Below are positions 33,301-45,942 of a stretch of DNA of 64,000 nt, piece by piece. The position numbers were made by a program, and so were the translations under genes. This DNA comes from Hyphomicrobium facile. GTDB taxonomy: Bacteria > Pseudomonadota > Alphaproteobacteria > Rhizobiales > Hyphomicrobiaceae. Every line of letters begins with the position of its first letter. Positions within the stretch are counted from its first letter, which is position 1. A model generated the notes under the pieces. The model did no database searches and was not told where the DNA came from. It saw nothing but the letters and a program-made list of their open reading frames with translations. The DNA is taken from the NCBI RefSeq assembly GCF_900116175.1, contig NZ_FPCH01000001.1, positions 374,501-438,500 on the forward strand, given 5' to 3'.

Positions 33301-33459
33301 TGCCGCGCGGCGTGTCGGCAGCAGCAGCGTGATTTTCGGAAGCGTCAGAATGTCGGGTGGGGTGCGGCCGGCGGCGGGCAGGTCACCGTTCAGGATCGCT
33401 CGTGCAAGCGCTTCGAGGAACGGCACTCCGAGCGGCAGGGTAAATACGGATCCCGGCAT
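30328..33459 (-). CDS. addB: AddB subunit of the AddAB helicase-nuclease (alphaproteobacterial type)
   Basis: 1043 residues. The N-terminal part contains ITLLLPTRRAARVAREAFL, a marker of the alphaproteobacterial AddB branch; the C-terminal nuclease has VITDYKTGAAPSDA. No Walker A (GxxGxGKT) is present in the N-terminal domain, and only two cysteines occur in the whole chain, so the iron-sulfur cluster of Bacillus AddB cannot form. The start at 33459 overlaps the murU stop (TGATG); the open frame extends further upstream but into murU. The gene overlaps addA by four bases. Confidence 0.9.
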   Translation of the reverse strand: MPGSVFTLPLGVPFLEALARAILNGDLPAAGRTPPDILTLPKITLLLPTRRAARVAREAFLAVANTRALIIPRILPISEGEGDLSLITSIAELGPSGAEALEQPPAINPLDRMLTLMQLVARWRQSMAEAASQSGNTTLGSTPAQAAQLAAELGKLMDDIERENVSLSGIQTLVPEAYSEHWNKTVDFLKIVTEYWPLHLEAHGLTSPEARRNALILAEADRIARLKPDEVVIVAGVTGSIPSTVTLMRAVAAHPSGAIVLPALDHTLDEDSWNQIVPLHPEHPQFGLRKLLDGLGISRSDVKTLPGVNVDAARTARSAFFSEAMRPSATTARWHEFAANADREKLEAALSGVSLIEAPSAQDEAETVALILREAIETPGRTAALVSPDRLLARRVAIRLEAWGIRVDDSAGRPFAKTVPGAFLALVINAVVSDFAPAETMALLRHPLCRAGMKTFDIRRFARALEISAFRTAYLGRGVEGIIAALDTAERDDGGEKKFMHVAARRLWAEDREGARLLVTKVAEAFKPLTDLYADQSPHTLAEFARAHAESAEALAALPEDEAPASNGQNPLWQGEAGNVAGRFFTELLKPETPDVEIRATDYADLYATLLAKENVRERTAVHPRISIWGPFEARLQQPDVLIIGSLNEGTWPEAAEPGAWLNRPMRTELGLPSPEEETGRAAHDFVSLLGAETVYLTRAEKVGGVPTVPSRWLMRTTALLKGMDLLPALEADKPWLAWARSRDWIDPANQIRVEAPEPRPPVDARPRKLSVTEIERWTSNPYAIFARHVLKLDPLPVLGAAPDASLRGGLVHSVMSQFATEYPNALPADPRAELERIATAVLEIYTGHPRVAAFWLPRLKRFLAWFAMTEAARRDGVQAIIAETSGRLVLDTGVKPFTLTARADRIDDKGAAIVITDYKTGAAPSDAAVKAGRSPQLPLEAAIALGEVGFPHLSGHTVEALRYIRASGAEPPGEERTIKCDDVAALAAEARAGLEQLIATFDRVETPYRAIRRPGYRYDFDAYAHLARVAEWSAHVDEEAAS

Positions 33460-34199
33460 CAGTCGGAACTCGTCGCCAGCGGTGCGCTGAGTGCGGCTTC
33501 CGCTTCCTTGAGGGCATCGGGGGTGCCGACGTGCATCCAAATGCCTTCGAGGCGAAGACCATAAAGCCGGCCCTTGTCGATGGCGCGATCCCACAGTTTG
33601 TTCAACGAGAACGCTCCGCTTGGTGCATTTTCGAAGAGACGCGGATGGGCGATCGACACTCCGGCAAACACGAACGGCGCAAGGCGTGGCCCGGTCTGGC
33701 GCGTCAGGCGGCCCGTCGCATCCATCTGGAAATCGCCAAGACCGTCGTAGCCGATGCTTGCGGAGAGGGGCGCAACGAGCATCAGACTGTCCATCAGGTC
33801 TGCATCGAAACCGCTCAGCAGGCGGTCGAGATTGGAGCCCAGTCCTTCGATCCACACTGAATCGGAATTATGAATGACGAACGGCCCGGCGCCGAGCTTC
33901 GGCAGCGCACGCACTGCCCCGCCGCCCGTATCGAGAAGTTTGTCGCGCTCGTCGGAAATGATGATTTTCGGAGCGGAGCGGTGCGCCAGATGCTTTTCGA
34001 TTTTGTCGGCGAGGTAGTGAACGTTGACCACGGCACGCTTGACGCCCGCGTCGGCTAAGCGATCGAGGACGTGATCGATCAGTGGCTTGCCGTCGAGCGG
34101 CACGAGGGGCTTCGGCAGGGTATTGGTCAGCGGACGCATGCGCTCGCCTTTGCCGGCTGCCAGTACGAAAGCGCTGGTGGGGCGCTTGGCGGACGTCAT
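33459..34199 (-). CDS. murU: Nucleotidyltransferase, probably MurNAc-1-phosphate uridylyltransferase
   Basis: 246 residues of the sugar-phosphate nucleotidyltransferase fold. The N-terminal signature is VLAAGKGERMRPLTNTLPKP, with the activated-sugar loop LVPLDGKPLIDHVLDRLA. The next gene upstream encodes an AmgK-type sugar kinase; AmgK plus MurU make UDP-MurNAc from recycled cell-wall sugars and bypass de novo synthesis, a route tied to fosfomycin tolerance in Pseudomonas. The name rests on this pairing; mannose-1-phosphate guanylyltransferases share the same motif. The C-terminus overlaps the addB start. Confidence 0.75.
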   Translation of the reverse strand: MTSAKRPTSAFVLAAGKGERMRPLTNTLPKPLVPLDGKPLIDHVLDRLADAGVKRAVVNVHYLADKIEKHLAHRSAPKIIISDERDKLLDTGGGAVRALPKLGAGPFVIHNSDSVWIEGLGSNLDRLLSGFDADLMDSLMLVAPLSASIGYDGLGDFQMDATGRLTRQTGPRLAPFVFAGVSIAHPRLFENAPSGAFSLNKLWDRAIDKGRLYGLRLEGIWMHVGTPDALKEAEAALSAPLATSSD

Positions 34200-34221
34200 G
34201 TGAAGCGTCTCCGAAATCGGG

Positions 34222-35769
34222 TTAGATCTTCAGGGCTTCTGCGCGCAGGCTCCGAGGTAGGTTTGCGTCATACCATGCTCTCAGTCCGGCGAGAGCCTCA
34301 TGCTGCAGGTCTCGTTCGAGATACCCCCAGATCCGTGGCATGTGGGCCAGGTATTGCCTTTTCCCATCGCGCATAGCCAACCGCGCGAAGATGCCGAGGA
34401 TTTTGGTATTTCGTTGTGCCCCTAGTGCGGCGTAGCTGAAGCGGAATTCGGGCTCGTCAAATGCGGGGTTCCGGGAGGCGTTGACCGCGACGTAATGGTC
34501 GAGCAGTTGTTTTTCCAGGTTTTCCGGCACGTCAACCCGCGCATCCTCGAGAAGCGACACGAGATCATAGGCAGCGGGCCCGATCATGGCATCCTGGAAA
34601 TCGATGATGCCGACGTCGCGGGGGCTCGGCCGGTTGTCGAGCGCGATCAGATTTGGCGAATGAAAGTCGCGCAGCAGCCAAGTCTTCGGCTGGCCCAACA
34701 GGCGCTCGAATGTGCTCTTCCACAACGCCGTGAATGCGTCGCGAGCCGATTGGGGCGCAGGTGTGCCGTGAAGCGCCGGCCAGTACCAATCGAGGAGCAG
34801 CTGGGTTTCGATTTCGAGCACGCCGTCGTCGGCTTCGGGGAGCGCGAACGTCGAGCCATCCGAAAGTACGATGCGGGGGGGCGGTGGCACACTCTGCACC
34901 GCGATCAGCGTGGCGACGCCGCGTTTCCAGAGCTCGGCTTGATCGCGTCCTCGCGCAACTTCAGCGCCGAAAACTTCGTCGCCGAAATCCTCGATGATCA
35001 GCAGTCCCTGCGCGAGGTCCTCGGCAAGTATGCGGGGGACCGAAAGTCCGTTGGCTCCGAGCGCACCGCCGATCGCGACGAAGGCTCTGACGCTTTCGGC
35101 CAGATGCGCGATGGCGCTGTAGGACTTGCCGTCGCGTATCGGTGGACCGTCAGGCCGCTGCGGTGAATCCATGAGGATTGCGCGGGTACCGTCGGCTTTC
35201 TGAAGGCGGGCATAGCGGCGCGGGGAGGCATCGCCCTGCAGATAGCTGAAGGCCGTCGACGCTTCGCCCCAGCCTGCGCGCGCCAGAAAATCGCGGATCG
35301 CCGCGAAGCGCTCGATACGGGCCACGAAATCGGCCGGCGTGCCGATGCTGACGTTTCGGCGGTCGGGCGCGCCTGTTTCGTCGAAGCGAATGGTGAACCG
35401 CTCGCGTGGAATGCGGTCGTCGCCCTTCGATGGCCATTCGATGACGGCGATGCCGCGCGTCAGGGCGGCGTCGAGACCAAGCTCGTCGATCTCGCTCGCG
35501 TCGGAAAGACGGTAGAGGTCGAAGTGTGCGATGTCGAAACGCGGGGTTTCGTAGGCCTGCACCAGGGTGAAGGTCGGGCTTGGAATTTCAAGCGACGGAT
35601 TGCCCGAGATGGCTCGGATGAGGGCGCGCGCAAAGGTCGATTTGCCGGCGCCGAGATCACCCTCCAGCGCCAACGTATCTCCGGTCTGCACGAGGAACGC
35701 GACCTCCTGCGCCACTCGCGAGACGTCGCCTTCCGTCAGGTCGTTGAATGAGAATGCCGGGTTTATCAT
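34222..35769 (-). CDS. TsaE-AmgK fusion: tRNA t6A ATPase joined to amino-sugar kinase
   Basis: 515 residues. Residues about 1-150 are TsaE: Walker A GDLGAGKS (37-44), HFDLYRL and IEWPSKGDDRI; TsaE drives the TsaBD complex that makes N6-threonylcarbamoyl-A37 in tRNA. Residues about 155-515 are an aminoglycoside-phosphotransferase-like kinase with the catalytic loop RDFHSPNL (367-374) and metal site IIDFQDA (389-394), matching AmgK, which phosphorylates MurNAc and GlcNAc at C1. Such fusions occur in Rhizobiales. murU follows 22 bases downstream and divL ends 11 bases upstream. The frame is intact, so a single polypeptide is expected. Confidence 0.88.
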   Translation of the reverse strand: MINPAFSFNDLTEGDVSRVAQEVAFLVQTGDTLALEGDLGAGKSTFARALIRAISGNPSLEIPSPTFTLVQAYETPRFDIAHFDLYRLSDASEIDELGLDAALTRGIAVIEWPSKGDDRIPRERFTIRFDETGAPDRRNVSIGTPADFVARIERFAAIRDFLARAGWGEASTAFSYLQGDASPRRYARLQKADGTRAILMDSPQRPDGPPIRDGKSYSAIAHLAESVRAFVAIGGALGANGLSVPRILAEDLAQGLLIIEDFGDEVFGAEVARGRDQAELWKRGVATLIAVQSVPPPPRIVLSDGSTFALPEADDGVLEIETQLLLDWYWPALHGTPAPQSARDAFTALWKSTFERLLGQPKTWLLRDFHSPNLIALDNRPSPRDVGIIDFQDAMIGPAAYDLVSLLEDARVDVPENLEKQLLDHYVAVNASRNPAFDEPEFRFSYAALGAQRNTKILGIFARLAMRDGKRQYLAHMPRIWGYLERDLQHEALAGLRAWYDANLPRSLRAEALKI

Positions 35770-35780
35770 CGCGCTCGGTT

Positions 35781-38294
35781 TTATGCTGCGCGCTCGCCGC
35801 CCGCCAGCCTGTCTCTGTCGCCGCCGGATGTCCGGGAGACGGGCCGCTCAGGAATTCGAACGACCACGCGTGTTCCCCGGCCTTCTTCCGAGGTGATTTC
35901 GATATTGCCGCCGTGAAGCTCGACGAGGCTTTTGGCAATTGAAAGGCCGAGACCTGCGCCACGATGCTCGGAGCCGCGGCTGCGGCTTTCGAAGCGCTGG
36001 AAGACACGGCCGATCTGATCTTTCGGGATGCCGATGCCGGCGTCCTCGACCCTGAAGAATATGTTTCCGGCTTGCCGCCAGCAGGCGAGGTACACGGTGC
36101 CGTTGATCTTCGAGAAGCCGACCGCATTGGACAGGAGATTGTACAGCACCTGACGCATGCGGGCTTCATCGACCATGATTTCCGTCACGTCGTCGGCGAC
36201 CGCGATATCGATCGTGAGGCGCGAGCGGACCGCGCGCTCGCGGATGCCCATAATGGCAGCGTCGATGATCGCGCGCACGCCGACCGGCGCGACCTTGAGC
36301 TCAAGTCCGCCGGCTTCGATCGTCGTCAGGTCCAGGATGTCATCGATAATCGCCAGCAGCGTCTTCGACGAGGACATGATGTCGGCGAGATATTCTCTCT
36401 GCTTGTCGTTCAGTTCGCCGAACATCGGACTTGCGAGCATGTCGGAGAAGCCGATGATGGTGTTCAGCGGCGTTCTCAGTTCGTAGGAGATATGGCCGAT
36501 GAAGTTCGTCTTCAGGCGGTCGGCGGCGACGAGAGCTTCGTTGCGTTCGACGAGGGCGCGTTCGGCGCGCTTTGCGTCCGTCACGTCGGCGTAGGTCAGC
36601 AGCGTCGCGCCGTCGGGCAACGGCATTAACGCGTAGTCGACGACGACGTTGTCCGTGCGGATCATCTGGCCGGAGAATGTCTCGCGCTCGTCCTGGAATG
36701 CGGTGACGGCGCGGCCGATGCGCAGCCATGTTCCCGCGTCGGGATAGAGGTTTTGAACCGCGGCGATGATTTCGCCGATATGCGGCAGCTCGTTCAGCTT
36801 GCCGGAGGGAATATGCCAGATGCCGCAGAAGGCCCGGTTGAACAGTTTGAGGCGGCCGTCCGTGCCGAACACGGCGACGCCTTCCTTGAGGCTGTCGAGC
36901 GTTTCGCGCTGCACGTCGATCAGGGCGTTATAGCGGGCTTCGAGTGCGAGGCGGTCGGTCTCGTCGCCGAAGAGGTAGGTGACGCCGCCATCGGGGCGCT
37001 GCTCGGCGATGACGTTGATGATGCGTCCGTCCGTCAGATTCCAGATGTCTTCGAGCGGCGTACCGGAGCGGTAGCCGGCGAGAACCTGGGCTTTCCAATC
37101 CCGATGGCTGACGACCGGCGGAAGCACGCCGATCTCGCGCAGGCGGTCGAGGATGTCGGAGTCGGTCGGACGGGTCGTCAGCCACTCCGGATCGAGCGAC
37201 CAAAGCTTCGCGAAAGCGGCGTTGTAGAAAACGAGCTTCTGTTCGCGATTGAACAGCGCAACGGCGGTTTCCACGCGGTCAAGCGTCCGGTCGTAAGCCT
37301 CGACCTGGCGATCGAGTTCGCCTTGCGCGGTTTCGATTTCCGTGACGTCGATCGCCGCTCCGGCCATCATGCCGTCGACGGGTATGACGACGATGTCGTG
37401 GGGTTTGCGCTCGCCGCCTGCGATGAGGTGAACGCGCGCACGATAGCTTTGACCGGCGCCGACAGCCTTCAGCACATGCTTGCGCTGGCGCGTCTCGAGC
37501 AATTCGATCTGGCGGTCCAGGACCTCGAGTTCGCTGTCGGCTTCGACCGCTTTGACGTACGCCTTGTTGACCCAGATGAGGCGGTTGGCCGGATCGCGCA
37601 GCCAGACGGGCATTGGAAGAGTGTCGAGAAGGGCGCGGCTCGAGTGAACGTCGCGCGTGAGTGCGGCGTGGCGCTCGTCGATCCTTGCGATTTCGGCTTT
37701 GTAAGTCGACACGTCCTTGAAGCGCAGCACGGCGCGTCCGCCGGCGGCCCGGCCCTCCGCTTCGATAGCGGCGCCGGCGTTCGTCTTCACGATGATGCTG
37801 AAGGCGCGGCCATTGGTGAAGAGCATGTCGAGCGATGTCTTCAGCGTGTCGGCGGATGCCGGTTGCAGCCATTGTCCGAAGCGCAGGATCTCCGCGTGCT
37901 GCTCAGGCAGGCCCGGAATTCCGGTCAGCGTGTGAGAGGCGATGCGGACGGCCTGTTCCTGCTCCCAAAAAATGAGAACCTGGGGCTCTGCGCGGATGAT
38001 GGCGTCTGCTGCCGCGAGGTTGCGACGAAGGTGTTGGCTCTCGGCTTTTGCTTTCCCGGCTTCCTTACGGGCGACGCTGCCCATGTGCCAGATGAGGAGG
38101 CCCGCCATGAACACGGCCGCCGCTACGATGCCGACGATGGCCAACTGACGTTCGCTGAGTTGGTTCGACTCGATCTGGTGGCCGCCCATGAAGACGGCGA
38201 GCATGGTGGCGACGCAGGCCATGGCCGCGAGTAGCAGAAGCGCCAGCTGAAGCCGGGTCGTCAACCGTCGGTTCTGGCCGGGCGTAGTGCGCAT
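35781..38294 (-). CDS. divL: DivL-like cell-cycle 'tyrosine kinase' (PAS sensor)
   Basis: 837 residues. Two N-terminal membrane segments (about 14-36 and 51-70), then a coiled coil and at least three PAS domains (about 220-320, 335-445 and 465-575), then a histidine-kinase-like core. The H box reads FIGHISYELRTPLNTIIGF with Tyr604 where kinases of this family have the phospho-acceptor His; codon 36485-36483 is TAC. The catalytic domain keeps NLLSNAVGFS, VEDAGIGIP and GAGLGLS. DivL of Caulobacter has the same Tyr and controls CckA and so CtrA. Position between ahcY and tsaE fits Rhizobiales DivL. Not shown here is any kinase activity. Confidence 0.82.
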   Translation of the reverse strand: MRTTPGQNRRLTTRLQLALLLLAAMACVATMLAVFMGGHQIESNQLSERQLAIVGIVAAAVFMAGLLIWHMGSVARKEAGKAKAESQHLRRNLAAADAIIRAEPQVLIFWEQEQAVRIASHTLTGIPGLPEQHAEILRFGQWLQPASADTLKTSLDMLFTNGRAFSIIVKTNAGAAIEAEGRAAGGRAVLRFKDVSTYKAEIARIDERHAALTRDVHSSRALLDTLPMPVWLRDPANRLIWVNKAYVKAVEADSELEVLDRQIELLETRQRKHVLKAVGAGQSYRARVHLIAGGERKPHDIVVIPVDGMMAGAAIDVTEIETAQGELDRQVEAYDRTLDRVETAVALFNREQKLVFYNAAFAKLWSLDPEWLTTRPTDSDILDRLREIGVLPPVVSHRDWKAQVLAGYRSGTPLEDIWNLTDGRIINVIAEQRPDGGVTYLFGDETDRLALEARYNALIDVQRETLDSLKEGVAVFGTDGRLKLFNRAFCGIWHIPSGKLNELPHIGEIIAAVQNLYPDAGTWLRIGRAVTAFQDERETFSGQMIRTDNVVVDYALMPLPDGATLLTYADVTDAKRAERALVERNEALVAADRLKTNFIGHISYELRTPLNTIIGFSDMLASPMFGELNDKQREYLADIMSSSKTLLAIIDDILDLTTIEAGGLELKVAPVGVRAIIDAAIMGIRERAVRSRLTIDIAVADDVTEIMVDEARMRQVLYNLLSNAVGFSKINGTVYLACWRQAGNIFFRVEDAGIGIPKDQIGRVFQRFESRSRGSEHRGAGLGLSIAKSLVELHGGNIEITSEEGRGTRVVVRIPERPVSRTSGGDRDRLAGGERAA

Positions 38295-38427: not shown

Positions 38428-38464
38428 CAAAATGAAACGGCGCCAGAGTGTTCCCCTGGCGCCG
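38428..38464 (-). terminator. Intrinsic terminator after ahcY
   Basis: Read on the minus strand, a perfect 9-bp stem (CGGCGCCAG with CTGGCGCCG, 38456-38464 and 38438-38446) closes a nine-base loop and is followed by TTTCATTTT. It lies 35 bases after the ahcY stop and insulates divL. Confidence 0.8.
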
Positions 38465-38498
38465 CGCAATTCGGTTCCGGCTCAGCGGAACTCGGCCA

Positions 38499-39908
38499 TT
38501 AATAGCGGTAATGGTCCGACTTGAAGGGGCCTTCGGTCTTGACGCCGATGTAGGAGGCCTGATCGGGGCTGAGCTTCGTCAGCTTGGCGCCGATCTTGGA
38601 GAGGTGGAGCCTTGCGACCTTCTCGTCGAGGTGCTTCGGCAACGTATAGACCTCGTTCTTGTACTTGCCTTGGTTGATGTGCAGCTCGATCTGCGCAAGC
38701 GTCTGGTTCGTGAACGACGCGGACATGACGAACGAGGGGTGGCCCATCGCGTTGCCAAGGTTCACCAAGCGGCCTTCCGAGAGAAGGATGATGCGCTTGC
38801 CGTCCGCGAATTCGATCTCGTCGACTTGCGGCTTGATGTTGTTCCACTTCAGGTTCTTGAGGCCGGCGACCTGGATCTCGTTGTCGAAGTGGCCGATGTT
38901 GCAGACGATCGCGCGATCCTTCATGCCCCGCATGTGTTCGATCGTGATGATGTCCTTGTTGCCCGTTGCCGTCACGAAGATGTCGGCGCGCGGAACGGCG
39001 TCTTCCATCGTCACGACTTCGTAGCCTTCCATCGCGGCCTGCAGTGCGCAGATCGGATCGATCTCGGAGACCATGACGCGGCAGCCGGCGTTGCGCAGAG
39101 ACGCAGCCGATCCCTTGCCGACGTCGCCGAAGCCGGCGACCATCGCGACCTTGCCGGCCATCATCACGTCGGTGCCGCGGCGGATACCGTCGACGAGGCT
39201 TTCGCGGCAGCCGTAGAGGTTGTCGAACTTCGACTTCGTGACGGAGTCGTTGACGTTGATTGCGGGGAAGAGAAGCTTGCCGCTCTTCTGCATTTCATAA
39301 AGGCGGTGAACGCCGGTCGTCGTTTCTTCCGACACGCCCTTGATGGATTTCGCGAGCGATGCGAACCAGCCTTTGGGCTTCTCGGCCAGCGTCTTCTTCA
39401 GGAGGGCGAAGAACACCTCTTCTTCTTCCGAGCCGGGCTTATCGAGGAAGGCCGTGTCGCCGTTCTCTGCGCGCAGTCCGAGGTGCACGAACATCGTTGC
39501 GTCGCCGCCGTCATCGAGGATCAGGTTCGGCATGCCGCCGTCGCCCCACTCGAAGAGCTTGCGCGTGTAGTCCCAGTAGTCCGTGAGGGTTTCGCCCTTC
39601 CACGCGAATACGGGAATGCCGGCAGCTGCGATGGCTGCGGCGGCGTGGTCTTGGGTCGAATAGATGTTGCACGAGACCCACCGAATGTCGGCGCCGAGGG
39701 CTGCCAGCGTCTCGATCAGGACGGCGGTCTGGATCGTCATGTGCAACGAGCCGGCGATGCGCGCGCCCTTCAGAGGCTTGGAAGAGCCGTATTCCTCGCG
39801 CGTCGCCATGAGGCCCGGCATCTCGGTCTCGGCGATGGCAATTTCCTTGCGCCCCCAGTCGGCGAGGCCGAGGTCCTTGACGATGTAATCCGTGAATTTC
39901 GTGCTCAT
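38499..39908 (-). CDS. ahcY: Adenosylhomocysteinase
   Basis: 469 residues. It splits S-adenosylhomocysteine to adenosine and homocysteine with bound NAD, relieving product inhibition of methyltransferases. Typical elements are [16 protein letters not shown], the NAD fold [15 protein letters not shown] and the C-terminal end [12 protein letters not shown] at 39908 ([14 protein letters not shown]) follows GAGGAAAAGAGCCCT; the longer open frame upstream has no such site and differs from the family. Length fits the proteobacterial class with the inserted segment around 120-160. An imperfect inverted repeat lies about 135 bases upstream. Confidence 0.96.
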
Positions 39909-40042
39909 AGGGCTCTTTTCCTCATGGATGCGCCTGCAATGCGGAGGGCTGCGTGGTGCGTGAACATGCACGCTTTGGCCTGTCAGGCCGCGCAAACTGT
40001 CGTTGCGCGTTGCTATAACGAACTCGGGCCCATCACGCAATA

Positions 40043-40064
40043 ACATATAAGCAAGTCTTTATGT
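40043..40064. promoter_or_regulatory. Imperfect inverted repeat upstream of ahcY
   Basis: ACATATAAG (40043-40051) and CTTTATGT (40057-40064) are imperfect inverted arms around CAAGT. The spacing and AT-rich content fit a transcription-factor site. Which factor is unknown; a regulator of methionine or SAM metabolism would be the natural guess, from ahcY only. Confidence 0.35.
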
Positions 40065-40175: not shown

Positions 40176-40268
40176 TGTTAGTCTCAATAACAACTCGGCA
40201 TATCTCATTAATTCGACATAAATCAACAAGGCCTCAGGGTGATTTCAAAGTATTCACGGAGTCGGTCT

Positions 40269-41711
40269 ATGAAGTTCGCGTCTTTTTCGCTGCGCCGTGC
40301 GCTGTGCGGTTATTGGAAGGCGGGGAATGCCGGAGCGGAGCGTCTCCGCGGGAGGACGGCTTTTCGCCGGTTCGCCAGCGACTCGCGAGGCGACGTCGCG
40401 ATCCTGTTCGGTCTCATGACGCTCGTGCTCGTCATGTTGATCGGGTTGGCGGTCGATTACGGGCGGCTTGTCAATGCGCGCAACCAGACGCTCGAAGCGA
40501 CAGACGCAGCGGTGCTGGCGGGCGCTCGTGCACTTCAGACCAACGGTGGCGACCAAGCGGCCGCGATCAAGGTCGCGCAGGCGTTCTATAAACAGGCCGT
40601 TCAAAGCCGCATCTCGATCGTTTCCAACTCCGATAACATTAACTTTGCAGTCACCGACAGCGGAACGGCAGTTGTATCAAACGGCAACGCCCAGATCTCG
40701 ACCCCATTCATGAGTGTGGCCGGTGTGAAGACCTTGCCGCTCCTCCATGCCGATGGGTCGGATTATGCCAAGGCCGTTCTTGCGGTCGGCGGTAACGCGG
40801 AACTCAACCTCGAAGTCAGCATGATGCTCGACATCACGGGGTCGATGAAGGGCCAAAAGCTGACGGATATGAAGGCCGCAGCCAGCGATCTCGTCAACAT
40901 CGTCGTTTGGAAGGACCAGAGCAAGTATACGTCGAGGATCGCGATCGTTCCGTTTGCGTACGACGTGCGGCCGCCGAGCTCGGTGCTGGCCAAGGTGCGT
41001 GGTGCTACGCCGACGAATCCGCTGACCGTCAGCAACACTAAATACTATCCGGCGGATTGCGTCGTCGAGCGTACCGGGACGGAAAAGTATACGGATGCTG
41101 CGCCCGCGGCGAACAAATACCTGATGACGCATTACACGACGGACTCAACGGGCTCCGGCTCGAACAAAAAAGGCGTCTGCGATGTGGCAGCCTCTGCAGA
41201 GCTTTTGCCGCTGACGAGCGACAAGACGGCTCTGCTCGCGAAGATCAACGGTCTGGCGACAGCCGGCAGTACGGCTGGACACATCGGTACGGCGTGGGCG
41301 TGGTACTTGCTATCGCCCAACTGGGGATCGCTGTGGGCTTCCACGAGTGCGCCTGCTGCTTACAACGCGCCGAACCTGAAGAAGATCGCGGTGCTGATGA
41401 CGGACGGCGAGTACAATACCCAGTACACGTCGAACGGCATCGATGACGGCTCGAGTTCTCTCACGTCGTGTCCGAAGGCGGCGAATGGTTGCTCTAGCGC
41501 ACAGGCTAAAGAGCAATGCAAAGCAATGAAAGCCAAGGGTATCGAGGTTTATACGGTTGGCTTCCAGCTCGACAACCAGACGGCGATCGACACGCTGAAG
41601 AGCTGCGCGACCGACGCCGACCATTTCTACAACTCGACGACGGGCGATGCGCTTAAGGCAGCGTTCCGCGATATCGCGCTGAAAATCTCGACGCTTTATC
41701 TTTCTCAGTGA
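40269..41711 (+). CDS. TadG-like pilus-assembly protein with von Willebrand A domain
   Basis: 480 residues. A short cytosolic end with RGDVAILFGLMT leads into one membrane helix (about 43-63, ending GLAVDYGR), the TadE/TadG type N-terminus with ATDAAVLAGARALQ after it. The rest is extracytoplasmic with a vWA fold: the metal site reads MMLDITGSM, that is DxTxS in place of the usual DxSxS, and LMTDGEYN follows. TadG proteins anchor Flp pili or adhesion complexes, but no other tad or flp gene is present, so it probably acts alone. ATG at 40269 follows GGAGTCGGTCT; a GTG at 40239 would add ten residues. Several Cys may form disulfides. Confidence 0.85.
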   Translation: MKFASFSLRRALCGYWKAGNAGAERLRGRTAFRRFASDSRGDVAILFGLMTLVLVMLIGLAVDYGRLVNARNQTLEATDAAVLAGARALQTNGGDQAAAIKVAQAFYKQAVQSRISIVSNSDNINFAVTDSGTAVVSNGNAQISTPFMSVAGVKTLPLLHADGSDYAKAVLAVGGNAELNLEVSMMLDITGSMKGQKLTDMKAAASDLVNIVVWKDQSKYTSRIAIVPFAYDVRPPSSVLAKVRGATPTNPLTVSNTKYYPADCVVERTGTEKYTDAAPAANKYLMTHYTTDSTGSGSNKKGVCDVAASAELLPLTSDKTALLAKINGLATAGSTAGHIGTAWAWYLLSPNWGSLWASTSAPAAYNAPNLKKIAVLMTDGEYNTQYTSNGIDDGSSSLTSCPKAANGCSSAQAKEQCKAMKAKGIEVYTVGFQLDNQTAIDTLKSCATDADHFYNSTTGDALKAAFRDIALKISTLYLSQ

Positions 41712-41826: not shown

Positions 41827-42132
41827 TCAGGCGTCGCCGACGCACTCTTCGTCGAAGCCCGCTTCAACCAATCGGACGAGAGCTTGCAGTGCTTCGGGGC
41901 CTTGCGGGCCTTCAGCTACGATATGGAGCTCGGATCCGGGACCCGCGGCGAGCATCATCAGCCCCATGATCGATGTTCCGCCGACGGAGTTGCCGTGGTG
42001 TGTGACGGTGACGTGCGCCTCGTAGCTTTCCGCGCATTTGACGAACTTCGCCGAGGCCCGTGCGTGCAGTCCTTTGACGTTGCGGATGATGACGACGGCT
42101 TCCGGTTTCAGACTGTTGACCAGTTCAGGCAT
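41827..42132 (-). CDS. ptsH: HPr-like phosphocarrier of a regulatory PTS
   Basis: 101 residues. The PEP-dependent phosphorylation site is His23 in VKGLHARASAKFV; Ser54 in GGTSIMGLMMLAAG corresponds to the regulatory serine phosphorylated by HPr kinase. Together with the adjacent EIIA(Man)-like gene and hprK it forms the truncated PTS of Alphaproteobacteria, which lacks sugar permeases and acts in regulation of carbon and nitrogen metabolism and stress. Enzyme I is not in the window. Ten-base gap to the upstream EIIA gene. Confidence 0.92.
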   Translation of the reverse strand: MPELVNSLKPEAVVIIRNVKGLHARASAKFVKCAESYEAHVTVTHHGNSVGGTSIMGLMMLAAGPGSELHIVAEGPQGPEALQALVRLVEAGFDEECVGDA

Positions 42133-42141
42133 TGTTTGTTC

Positions 42142-42543
42142 TCAGCCGCCGGAAAGCTCTTGGCTCGCGACCTTGATATATTTCTTGCCGGCGTCGCGCG
42201 CCATGATGACAGCTTGTTCGAGCGGCGTGTCGCCGCGAATGCTGGCAAGCTTCACCAGAATGGGAAGGCTGATGCCAGCAATCACTTCCGCCTTCGTCTC
42301 ATCCATAACCGAGATGGCTAGGTTGGAAGGAGTTCCGCCGAACATGTCCGTCAAAACGATTACGCCTTTGCCGTTATCTACTCGCTGGACCGCGCTTAAA
42401 ATTTCCATGCGCCTCGCTTCCATATCGTCGTCCGGGCCGATGGCTATCGTTTCCAGCGACTGCTGTTTGCCGACGACGTGCTCGAGCGCGTTGCGAAATT
42501 CTTGCGCAAGCCCGCCATGCGTGACGATGACAAGTCCGATCAT
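42142..42543 (-). CDS. EIIA component of mannose-type regulatory PTS
   Basis: 133 residues of the PTS EIIA(Man) fold with the phosphorylated His9 in GLVIVTHGGLAQEF and the LTDMFGGTPSNLA element. No EIIB, EIIC or EIID partner is present, so a transport role is unlikely. In Rhizobiales this protein (often called ManX or PtsM) receives phosphate from HPr and is part of a control chain. The next gene upstream, hprK, lies 107 bases away; ptsH follows after nine bases. Confidence 0.9.
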   Translation of the reverse strand: MIGLVIVTHGGLAQEFRNALEHVVGKQQSLETIAIGPDDDMEARRMEILSAVQRVDNGKGVIVLTDMFGGTPSNLAISVMDETKAEVIAGISLPILVKLASIRGDTPLEQAVIMARDAGKKYIKVASQELSGG

Positions 42544-42650
42544 GAGCGACGGGCCATTTCATTCTCGTGCGGCGAATTCGTGTTTTGCCGCCGTATGGCG
42601 CGGAAATTGGCAAGTGTTTGGTGCGGGCGCAAGAAGTTTCTGGACTTCAT

Positions 42651-43127
42651 TCAGGCCTTTGGTTGCACACGTGGCTGGGGGGCCATGTCGATGGCTGCTA
42701 CAAGTTTCAAGGGGCTTGAGCTCTCAAAGGGCGATAACCGGATAAGAGGTACGTCCAATCCCAGGATATGGGCGAACTGCCAGGGGTCCGGAAACCTTTC
42801 GATCGCGCCGTCGCGGACGAGATCGACAACGAGAACTACGTTCCCTTCGCCTACGGCATCAACCTCAAGGATGCCAATGCCGCGTACTTCAAGCTTGCCG
42901 CGCAACTGAGCCGGGGCGCTTGCGTGCAGAAAGGAGCCTTCCTGCTTCAATACGACTTGGTCGTCCGAGACCAGCAGGACCTTGTCTCGAACGATCGGGG
43001 ACAGCGGGAGACCCAGGCACCGGAATGCAAGGTCGGACTTGCCGGAACCCGAAGCTCCGCGGATCAAAGCCACACGGCCGCCAATGGCGATGGCGGTCGC
43101 GTGGACGCGCTCAACTTCTCCAGACAA
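42651..43127 (-). CDS. hprK: HPr kinase/phosphorylase, short form
   Basis: 158 residues, only the C-terminal catalytic domain of the roughly 310-residue Bacillus enzyme. The P-loop is RGASGSGKSDLAFRCL (24-31), followed by VSDDQVVL and the HprK element VRGIGILEVDAVGEG. The short form is usual in Alphaproteobacteria. It phosphorylates HPr on the regulatory serine, placing ptsH and the EIIA gene under ATP control. The start is a TTG at 43127 inside the end of chvG, a 17-base overlap that suggests coupling to the two-component genes. Confidence 0.88.
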   Translation of the reverse strand: MSGEVERVHATAIAIGGRVALIRGASGSGKSDLAFRCLGLPLSPIVRDKVLLVSDDQVVLKQEGSFLHASAPAQLRGKLEVRGIGILEVDAVGEGNVVLVVDLVRDGAIERFPDPWQFAHILGLDVPLIRLSPFESSSPLKLVAAIDMAPQPRVQPKA

Positions 43128-44958
43128 GTCCGGGTCCTACTGTCGCTAGCGGCAGACGGACGGTAAAGCGAGCGCCCCTTGGCGCCTGCACGCTGTTTGA
43201 TCCACGGTTCTCTGCGAAAATCTCGCCGTTATGGCTGACGACGATTTCGCGGGAAATCGATAGGCCGAGCCCCGAGTTCTTTCCGCGTTTGGCGTCGGTC
43301 TGCGGGCGGTCGCTGTAAAACCTGTCGAAGATCTGGGCGAGCTTATCCGGCGGGATGCCTGGCCCCTCGTCCTCGACCGCTACTTCGATCTTTCTGTCGT
43401 TCAGTTTGGCGCGAACCGTGACGGTTCCGCCTTCCGGCGAGAACGACAAGGCATTGTCGATGAGATTTGTGAATACCTGGCCGAGGCGCCCGTCGTTACC
43501 GCGCACCGTGTAGGCTGCGGCCGTTCCGGGCTCGACGATCAGGCGGATGCTGCGCGTGTCGTCCGCAAGCATCTCGGAGAATAGTCCGTTGACGCTCTCC
43601 AGCACGGTGCGGACATCGACGGCCTGCATTTCCTGGCGGGCGAGTTCGGCATCGAGACGCGATGTGCTTGAAATGTCGTTTATCAGCCGGTTGAGCCGCT
43701 TCAACTCGGTCTGGATCTCTTGCACGAGCTCGGTGCGGTCGGCGTCGGATCGCGCGTAGGCGAGGGCTTCTGCGGTCGAGCGGGCAGCCGCCAGAGGATT
43801 TTTCAATTCATGGGCGACGTCGGCTGCAAATTTCTCGCTGGCTTCGATGCGCCGGTAAAGTGCGTTCGTCATCGCGACGAATGCACGGCCCGTCTGCCCG
43901 ACCTCGTCGCGGCGTTCCGTGAGATCGGGGAGCTGTTCGCGGGCGGAAATATTCTGCGTCACGCGGTTGGCTGCTTCCGACAGGCGACGCATCGGCCCTG
44001 CAACCGTTCTCTCGAGAACTAGCGAGCTGCCGATCGCGACCAGCAGCGCCATTGCCGCGATCTGCAAGATCAGCCAACGTTCGTCCCAAAGGACGTCGTC
44101 GATATCGCCGGGATTTGTAGAAAGGAGTAGGACGCCTAGGATTTTATTACCTCGTTTGATCGGCTCGGCCATCGACACGATTTGCTGGCCGTGCCGGTTG
44201 AGCAGCAAAATGGGGGTTTCCACGCCATTCTGCGCGGCGCGCTGCACCTCCGGATAGAGAAACCCGTTGGCGGTTCCTAGCTCGCGATAGACCTTGAGTT
44301 CCTTGTTGATCACCCAATAGTGGAGCCGGGTCCAAAAATTCTTGAGACGTGGGGCGGGTTCGTCGGCGGCGACCGTGACGGTTTCGGCGGTTGGGTCATC
44401 GTTCGAAAAGAGCGTCTCGCCGTTGAGGATCAGCGTCCCCTTGGCGGAATAGATGCGCGCTTTGAGGTTCGCCGGGCCCACAAGCTTTTTCAGGATGATC
44501 GCAGCCTGATGCGGATCGATGGGCAATTCGAGCGCGGCGAACGCATCGTCGCGCTGGGCTCTGGCCATCGTTTTCTCAGGGATCCGGTTCGGATCGAAAA
44601 TTGCGCGCTCATTGACCGCCCGATACGCAATCGCCTCCGACGTGATGCGCGACACCGTTTTGACGACGTCGACTTTCGCGTCGAGCAGCCAGCCGTGGTG
44701 AAGGCTCAGATAGAGCATCGCGAACAGCAGGCCGGCGAGCCCCAAGACGTTCGCCAGAAGAATGCGCCGCCTGAGGTTTTTTCCGATGACGCGGCCGATG
44801 AAACTTTGCGACAGCCACCGGCCGGTCGCGGCGCTCGCTTTTGCGGCCGCGGCACGGAAATCAAATTTCGGCTTCTTCACGCCTATGGAAGGCGCGGAAA
44901 CGTCCGCAGCGCTTCTCAGCGTTGCGGCCGCTGCAATGTCATTGCTGTCGAGCGCCAT
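43111..44958 (-). CDS. chvG: Sensor histidine kinase ChvG (ExoS family)
   Basis: 615 residues. Two membrane segments (about 68-86 and 295-316) enclose a large periplasmic sensor domain; a HAMP-like linker follows, then the H box FAADVAHELKNPLAAARS with His383, and the ATPase core with NLIDNALSFSPEGG, VEDEGPGIP and GLGLSISREIV. In Rhizobiales ChvG senses low pH and envelope stress, is inhibited by ExoR in the periplasm and phosphorylates ChvI. The long N-terminal cytosolic tail of about 65 residues is typical of the family. It lies 26 bases after chvI. Confidence 0.93.
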   Translation of the reverse strand: MALDSNDIAAAATLRSAADVSAPSIGVKKPKFDFRAAAAKASAATGRWLSQSFIGRVIGKNLRRRILLANVLGLAGLLFAMLYLSLHHGWLLDAKVDVVKTVSRITSEAIAYRAVNERAIFDPNRIPEKTMARAQRDDAFAALELPIDPHQAAIILKKLVGPANLKARIYSAKGTLILNGETLFSNDDPTAETVTVAADEPAPRLKNFWTRLHYWVINKELKVYRELGTANGFLYPEVQRAAQNGVETPILLLNRHGQQIVSMAEPIKRGNKILGVLLLSTNPGDIDDVLWDERWLILQIAAMALLVAIGSSLVLERTVAGPMRRLSEAANRVTQNISAREQLPDLTERRDEVGQTGRAFVAMTNALYRRIEASEKFAADVAHELKNPLAAARSTAEALAYARSDADRTELVQEIQTELKRLNRLINDISSTSRLDAELARQEMQAVDVRTVLESVNGLFSEMLADDTRSIRLIVEPGTAAAYTVRGNDGRLGQVFTNLIDNALSFSPEGGTVTVRAKLNDRKIEVAVEDEGPGIPPDKLAQIFDRFYSDRPQTDAKRGKNSGLGLSISREIVVSHNGEIFAENRGSNSVQAPRGARFTVRLPLATVGPGLVWRS

Positions 44959-44984
44959 CCCGTCCCCGGTGGCTGATCGGCCGC

Positions 44985-45689
44985 CTACTCTTTGAAGCGA
45001 TAGCCGACGCCATAAAGTGTTTCGATCACGTCAAAATCGTCATCGACCTGCTTAAACTTCTTGCGCAAGCGCTTGATGTGGCTGTCGATCGTGCGGTCAT
45101 CCACATAGACCTGATCGTCGTAGGCTGCATCCATCAGGGCGTCGCGCGTCTTGACGACGCCCGGCCGTGTCGCCAGCGCCTGCAAGATCAGGAACTCCGT
45201 CACCGTCAACGTGACGCCCCGGTTATCCCAGTGGCAGGTGTGACGCTCGGGATCGAGCTTCAACTTGCCTCTTTCGAGCACGCGCTTGGCTTCGTCTTCC
45301 GTCGTCGTGCCGTCCTTGGGCGCCACACGGCGCAAAACAGCCTTGACGCGTTCGACGATGAGCCGCTGCGAAAACGGCTTCGCGATATAATCGTCGGCAC
45401 CCATCTTGAGGCCGAAAAGCTCGTCGATTTCCTCATCCTTCGAGGTCAGAAAGATGACCGGCATCGCCGACTGCTGACGGACGCGGCGGAGAAGCTCCAT
45501 TCCGTCCATGCGCGGCATCTTGATATCGAATATCCCGAGATCGGCCGGCTCTTCAGTCAGCGCTTCGAGCGCTGAGACCCCGTCCCCATAGGTTCGGACC
45601 TTATAGCCCTCGGCCTCCAGGGCCATCCGCAGGGAGGTCAGGATGTTCCGCTCGTCATCGACGAGCGCTATGGTGCTCTTTTCCTTCAT
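44985..45689 (-). CDS. chvI: Response regulator ChvI
   Basis: 234 residues, OmpR type: receiver domain with the phospho-acceptor Asp in [13 protein letters not shown], switch residues LTSKDE and KPFSQRL, then a winged helix ending in [15 protein letters not shown]. It controls succinoglycan, motility, acid and symbiosis genes in Rhizobiales. ATG at 45689 follows AAGAGGAACAG; a longer reading adds 13 residues without family support. It is divergent from pckA, and the gap between them holds two palindromes. Confidence 0.95.
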
Positions 45690-45942
45690 CTGTTCCTCTT
45701 GTGCCCCTCGGCCGCAGCGGATGTGCACCGCGCCAGCATTAGGCGCTTATGGCGGCATGGTGTACCAATTGTGGCGCCCCGTCCAATGGACGCCGGAGGC
45801 TGAATGGCCCCTGAATAGGCGACCACGCCCTCAACGGCAAGCGAACAGGGTGATTTGTGTGGTCACAACTTCCAAATTCCGCTTGTTTACCGGGTTTGTT
45901 ACTCCCATCCTCTGCGTAAAGACGAATCTCGGAATATCCAAA

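Follow-up and report, generated by a model that had tools for sequence, protein, structure and literature searches.

The window analyzed here is a 64,000-nucleotide stretch of the Hyphomicrobium facile genome, and it carries a gene for a pseudo-histidine kinase that we will refer to as divL (Table 1). The genes of this region are arranged in the order ahcY-divL-tsaE/amgK-murU, with homologs of HPr, EIIA, HprK, ChvG and ChvI beyond ahcY, where the name ChvI is our assumption from its position beside ChvG. The divL gene is separated from tsaE-amgK by 11 nt and from ahcY by 204 nt. A terminator-like hairpin lies between ahcY and divL, and hairpins with T-tails are not in excess (3 sites vs 3.2 in shuffled sequences).

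Table 1. Features of the divL locus, with positions counted from the first nucleotide of the window
Feature	Position	Strand	Basis
divL, 837-aa pseudo-histidine kinase	35781..38294	-	ORF read, Pfam, solved-structure match, tree
TAC codon for Tyr604, which replaces the phospho-accepting His	36483..36485	-	Codon read and alignment column
First N-terminal hydrophobic helix, residues 9-36 (about 11-39 by hydropathy)	38187..38270	-	Hydropathy and AlphaFold model
Second hydrophobic helix, residues about 48-75	38070..38153	-	Hydropathy and AlphaFold model
PAS-like unit 1, residues 105-194	37713..37982	-	Model only; no Pfam stretch there
PAS-like unit 2, residues 230-316	37347..37607	-	Model; PAS_8 best stretch 220-251, alone not significant
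PAS-like unit 3, residues 344-444	36963..37265	-	Model; of Pfam's two PAS_7 stretches, only the other one is placed
PAS-like unit 4, residues 472-570	36585..36881	-	Model; PAS_7 at 466-579
Two-helix DHp domain that contains Tyr604, residues 572-660	36315..36581	-	HisKA, model, 4q20 match
CA domain (HATPase_c) bearing the N, G1 and G2 boxes, residues 669-815	35850..36290	-	Pfam, model, box test
ahcY, adenosylhomocysteinase	38499..40046	-	TIGR00936 over cut-off
tsaE fused to AmgK-like sugar kinase	34222..35769	-	TIGR00150 over cut-off; AmgK models below cut-off
MurU-like nucleotidyltransferase	33459..34199	-	NF045697 E 2.7e-79, below cut-off
HPr, EIIA, HprK, ChvG and ChvI homologs (PTSNtr/ChvGI part)	41827..45728	-	HPr TIGR01003 over cut-off, others below
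12-pair hairpin with T-rich tail, terminator-like, between ahcY and divL	38437..38465	-	Fold z -2.87

Judged by gene order, at least the ahcY-divL-tsaE part of this arrangement is common in the order to which the window organism belongs. Among the best 80 loci of the matches listed, 76 had tsaE downstream of divL and 57 had ahcY upstream of it in the same orientation; of the 71 loci whose sequence extends 3 kb or more upstream, 53 had ahcY there and 18 lacked it. The genera of the order with this arrangement include some that are usually held to be free-living. In Brucella abortus, bvrR-bvrS-hprK-ptsM-ptsO-ahcY-divL-tsaE is described as lying in a 16-gene co-transcribed operon in which divL is named, and the published table lists a mannose-1-phosphate guanylyltransferase as the gene after tsaE (PMC9491525). 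The window resembles this locus in its ahcY-divL-tsaE-nucleotidyltransferase order and, on the far side, in its HPr, EIIA and HprK homologs and two-component pair, but it differs in containing an opposite-strand ORF between HPr and ahcY and the terminator-like hairpin between ahcY and divL.

It had been speculated in the earlier note that the position of divL beside ahcY ties SAM metabolism to cell-cycle control. The neighborhood is indeed conserved; this link is nonetheless unsupported, because the arrangement corresponds to a published conserved block, the hairpin after ahcY parts it from divL, and divL lies closer to tsaE-amgK. The opposite-strand ORF (490 aa, 40239-41711, +) has no NCBIfam match at 1e-15 and is presumably of Tad pilus type with a VWA-like part. 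Behind divL, the tsaE/AmgK-like fusion is followed by the MurU-like gene (33459-35769), and the AmgK-like and MurU-like genes are likely a peptidoglycan-recycling pair. Upstream of divL we found no CtrA box (TTAA-N7-TTAA, at most one mismatch); the window holds 5 such matches in total vs 3.0 expected, and the two that come closest to divL (40137 and 40208) are located beyond ahcY. A search of the divL strand between 35700 and 38600 returned no sigma-70-type promoter.

Domain organization and orthology of the window DivL

The H box of the window DivL reads HISYELRTPL, with the Tyr604 codon inside FIGHISYELRTPLNTIIGF. The earlier note had placed a TAC codon for Tyr604 at 36485-36483 within the motif SYELRTPL, and this reading was exact, as were its ORF, strand, length and coordinates. 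Pfam recognizes HisKA (residues 595-662) and HATPase_c (709-817) above their cut-offs, together with two PAS_7 stretches, of which the one at 466-579 scores better, a PAS_8 match, and a PAS_4 match that overlaps PAS_7. The AlphaFold model has a mean pLDDT of 81.3 and a pTM of 0.35, values that allow the fold of each domain to be used but not the arrangement of the domains relative to one another. From the N- to the C-terminus, this model contains two helices and four PAS-like alpha/beta units, followed by a DHp hairpin and then by a CA domain in which residues 769-777 are poorly defined. As the model contains four PAS-like units, the previous count of at least three PAS domains holds. It is possible that the two N-terminal helices cross the membrane, as their predicted hydrophobicity is sufficient to do so. 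The N (NLLSNA), G1 (DAGIGI) and G2 (GAGLGL) boxes agree with the earlier description of intact ATPase motifs, which are intact as letters rather than as a demonstration of activity. Taken together, Pfam, hydropathy and the model give the window protein the feature set of DivL, comprising a putative membrane anchor, several PAS domains, DHp and CA.

Within its own 4.4 Mb genome, the window DivL is the sole full-length match; the runner-up kinase aligns only with the kinase part, at 37% identity. By sequence, the top match among solved structures was Caulobacter DivL (4q20; E 1.8e-39, first of 75). By fold, 4q20 ranked 10 of 1271, with 36% identity and a TM of 0.73 over the target; the structures ahead of it include phytochromes, WalK and NifL, which are longer multi-domain sensors with more columns aligned. 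Among the best 25 of 81 NCBIfam matches, no family exceeded its cut-off for this protein, with PdhS at 151.9 bits vs a cut-off of 2000 and DivJ at 136.9 vs 1000. The nearest relative among the matches listed, which may omit the window's own genome, is from a Hyphomicrobiaceae MAG (L197), at 61% identity in the best segment.

Our main tree contained 67 rows, namely 57 DivL proteins including that of Caulobacter and 10 His kinases, and was built with the H-box column left out. The DivL rows separated from the His kinases at 99/99 support, and the window and Caulobacter proteins fell within one 27-row clade at 100/97 (bootstrap not fully settled). A comparison of DivL with PdhS/PleC-type kinases, which the earlier note had proposed as a check, therefore places the window protein outside the His kinases. 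In an earlier tree made by a quick method from 121 rows, degenerate and long proteins included, the SH-aLRT support of the DivL group was only 87, and seven kinases from the window's genome did not form one group. The tree, the solved-structure match, the partner proteins and the synteny support the prediction that this gene is divL, an ortholog of the Caulobacter gene, and bear out the identity that had been given to it before. The window DivL has the form that is normal for this protein in its bacterial group, which makes the original observation correct and not surprising.

Conservation of the H-box tyrosine

The motif SY[EK]LRTPL is present in all six other top loci (L002-L007), of which one belongs to the genus of the window organism, three to its family and two to its order. 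Because relatives carry the same Tyr, including the same-genus L002, a sequencing error at codon 604, which the earlier note had named as a possible refutation, is ruled out.

Our tally of 272 DivL rows gives numbers to the published statement on Tyr conservation in DivL. The search of the order covered 150 genomes and gave a DivL match at E 1e-50 in 147; the weakest of these matches (G057, 4.1e-52) is no better than paralogs and may itself be one. The order sample comprised 90 of these 147 genomes (the 30 best plus 60 taken for spread or low score) and the best 80 loci among the matches listed; the rest-of-class sample comprised 102 rows, drawn from 101 genomes out of the 128 outside the order that gave a match. 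In the class search, 109 of 240 genomes had no match at 1e-90, so a short or lost DivL in these genomes is uncounted. Duplicates (L104, L105, L110) and His paralogs (L137, L138, L139, L142, L143) were left out of the tally, and identical pairs (L008/L200, L078/L240), a second G153 copy (L144), a fragment (L140) and incomplete rows were kept.

Tyr occupies the H-box column in 244 of the 272 rows. The order, with the best 80 loci among the matches listed included, accounts for 166 of these (of 170 rows, the others being 2 His and 2 Phe), and the rest of the class for 78 (of 102 rows, with 5 His, 4 without a residue and 15 others). All three ATP boxes, scored by a fixed test on five letters that is no proof of binding, are intact in 160 Tyr rows and 1 Phe row of the order; in the rest of the class they are intact in 64 Tyr rows, 3 His rows and one row each with Phe, Gly and Val. 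Of the six Tyr-bearing order rows that remain from 166, two are incomplete (L030, L199). It has been reported that the Tyr is conserved throughout alphaproteobacterial DivL, with the exception of an Ala in Magnetospirillum (PMC4211667). By our alignments, the larger sample adds exceptions and so qualifies this rule as reported.

Partner proteins and proposed signaling

The genome of the window organism encodes DivK, CckA, ChpT and CtrA, which places a well-studied cell-cycle pseudokinase and its partners in a Hyphomicrobiaceae genome. DivK, whose gene lies just before pleD, matches Caulobacter DivK at E 2.2e-57. CckA (L134, 879 aa) matches 5idm, which is named CckA, at E 2.1e-35 and 5idj, which we take to be CckA as well, at 4.9e-60. 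ChpT is recognized by PF10090 (114 bits) and CtrA by NF045991 (426 bits, cut-off 350).

Like the Caulobacter crescentus protein (4q20), the window DivL has an H-box Tyr, DHp and CA domains and a place in the same clade, and the two kinase parts are 36% identical. Of the Caulobacter DivK-docking residues, R553 is kept as R607, Y562 is replaced by Phe616 and A601 by Thr657. In the 170 order rows, which include the best 80 loci among the matches listed, position 616 is Phe in 164 and position 657 is Ala in 151 and Thr in 14. The ATP boxes of the window protein are by letters more canonical than those of Caulobacter (NLLSNA vs HLVENA; DAGIGI vs DTGRGV). Two other species offer comparisons, Sinorhizobium meliloti, a member of the Rhizobiaceae, and Hyphomonas neptunium, which belongs to another order than the window organism. 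In S. meliloti, to which we liken the window protein by published description rather than by sequence, DivL, CckA and DivK act together in the CtrA pathway, and divL and cckA suppressors put both genes in one pathway (PMC11500502). The stalked, budding H. neptunium is reported to have DivL together with CckA, ChpT and CtrA, as does the window's genome, but there DivK is dispensable and DivL essential (PMC7200025). The Caulobacter protein itself is described as having several PAS domains (PMC4211667) and as a protein without kinase or phosphatase activity that binds DivK~P and relays to CckA (PMC4211667, PMC5361649).

Starting from the observed orthology, Tyr604, domain order, conservation and presence of partners, we propose that the window DivL is very probably a pseudokinase, bound to the membrane and equipped with several PAS domains, whose role is to sense DivK~P and to set how CckA is balanced between kinase and phosphatase activity, and hence CtrA~P. 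In this model, the DHp/CA part, barred by Tyr604 from taking a phosphoryl group, would dock phosphorylated DivK, and the PAS array would transmit this docking to CckA, a hybrid kinase. In its free form, DivL would favor the kinase state of CckA, and with DivK~P bound it would favor the phosphatase state, and the resulting balance would determine the level of CtrA~P and set the cell cycle. The binding and signaling steps, the direction of control and essentiality are extended to the window protein by analogy with Caulobacter and Sinorhizobium.

We weighed this model against three others. The protein could be a DivL ortholog whose main input is another signal, with DivK as a minor regulator; DivK input may be minor because DivK is reported to be dispensable in H. 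neptunium while DivL is essential (PMC7200025), and Thr657 and Phe616 depart from the Caulobacter docking residues. However, DivK is present, its gene lies just before pleD, and 160 of the 166 order rows with Tyr have all three ATP boxes of the CA part intact, and we regard this reading as distinctly unlikely. The protein could also be a tyrosine kinase in its own right, with Tyr604 as its site of autophosphorylation. This would agree with N, G1 and G2 boxes that are intact by letters and with a solved structure titled as a tyrosine kinase, but it is highly improbable given that Caulobacter DivL is reported to lack autokinase activity in vitro and to bind ATP weakly (PMC4211667). The chance that the protein is an ordinary His kinase of the PdhS, PleC or DivJ type whose Tyr codon arose by sequencing error or by chance is negligible, as this reading is refuted by the trees and by Tyr604, a residue shared with the great majority of DivL rows, including the same-genus L002. 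A DivL pseudokinase that senses DivK~P and acts on CckA thus remains our preferred model.

DivL proteins with other residues at the acceptor position

The exceptions to the Tyr rule (His, Phe, Val and others) are the part of these data that we consider worth following. Three DivL proteins from outside the order (L128, L182 and L277, from G241, G190 and G316) have the H box SHELRTPL with intact N, G1 and G2 boxes and are nested among Tyr-bearing DivL proteins. L182 and L277 come from two species of one genus. In the best tree, L128 and the L182-L277 pair form two branches and require two changes, although the well-supported branches alone force one. From their sequences, it is possible that these three proteins are reverted kinases. 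Two others (L164, L165) have His and have lost the ATP boxes.

A Caulobacter Y550H mutant is reported to be harmed in growth and to gain DivK~P-stimulated phosphorylation (PMC4211667), and the natural Tyr-to-His series is its evolutionary counterpart. Among the titles listed in our literature search, none was on His-bearing DivL. We tentatively suggest, as an idea that we consider unlikely, that the ATP site of DivL in the order is used for nucleotide-gated sensing of DivK~P and that acceptor loss is reversible, the His forms possibly being live kinases. Reversibility is suggested by the two His branches inside DivL that have all ATP boxes intact (L128; L182 with L277). If true, nucleotide-gated sensing would explain why the ATP site is so widely intact in the order's Tyr-bearing rows despite the lost acceptor.

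In one family with small genomes (L031-L034), the PAS and DHp parts are kept, the CA domain lacks recognizable boxes in three of the four proteins, two have His and two Tyr, and DivK is kept in all four genomes. L031 and L032 (G054 and G091, 1.3 Mb genomes) are the two with His; their last 150 or so residues have no recognizable boxes, and their genomes encode DivK at 49% identity. It has been reported that a DivL without a kinase domain always accompanies the absence of DivK (PMC2877005), and one long DivL whose HK and CA domains are degenerate is described after DivK loss (PMC9430884). L031 and L032 lie near these published cases, yet they have lost the boxes with DivK kept.

The acceptor position is Phe in L042 and L060, which belong to one family, and Val in L284. 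L140 (G289:C1:265335-270538) is not a His paralog, since it carries Tyr and is the C-terminal piece of the G289 DivL. This DivL extends over two overlapping ORFs, one with the PAS part and one with the DHp-CA part, and its sequence would fit either a split gene or a frameshift.
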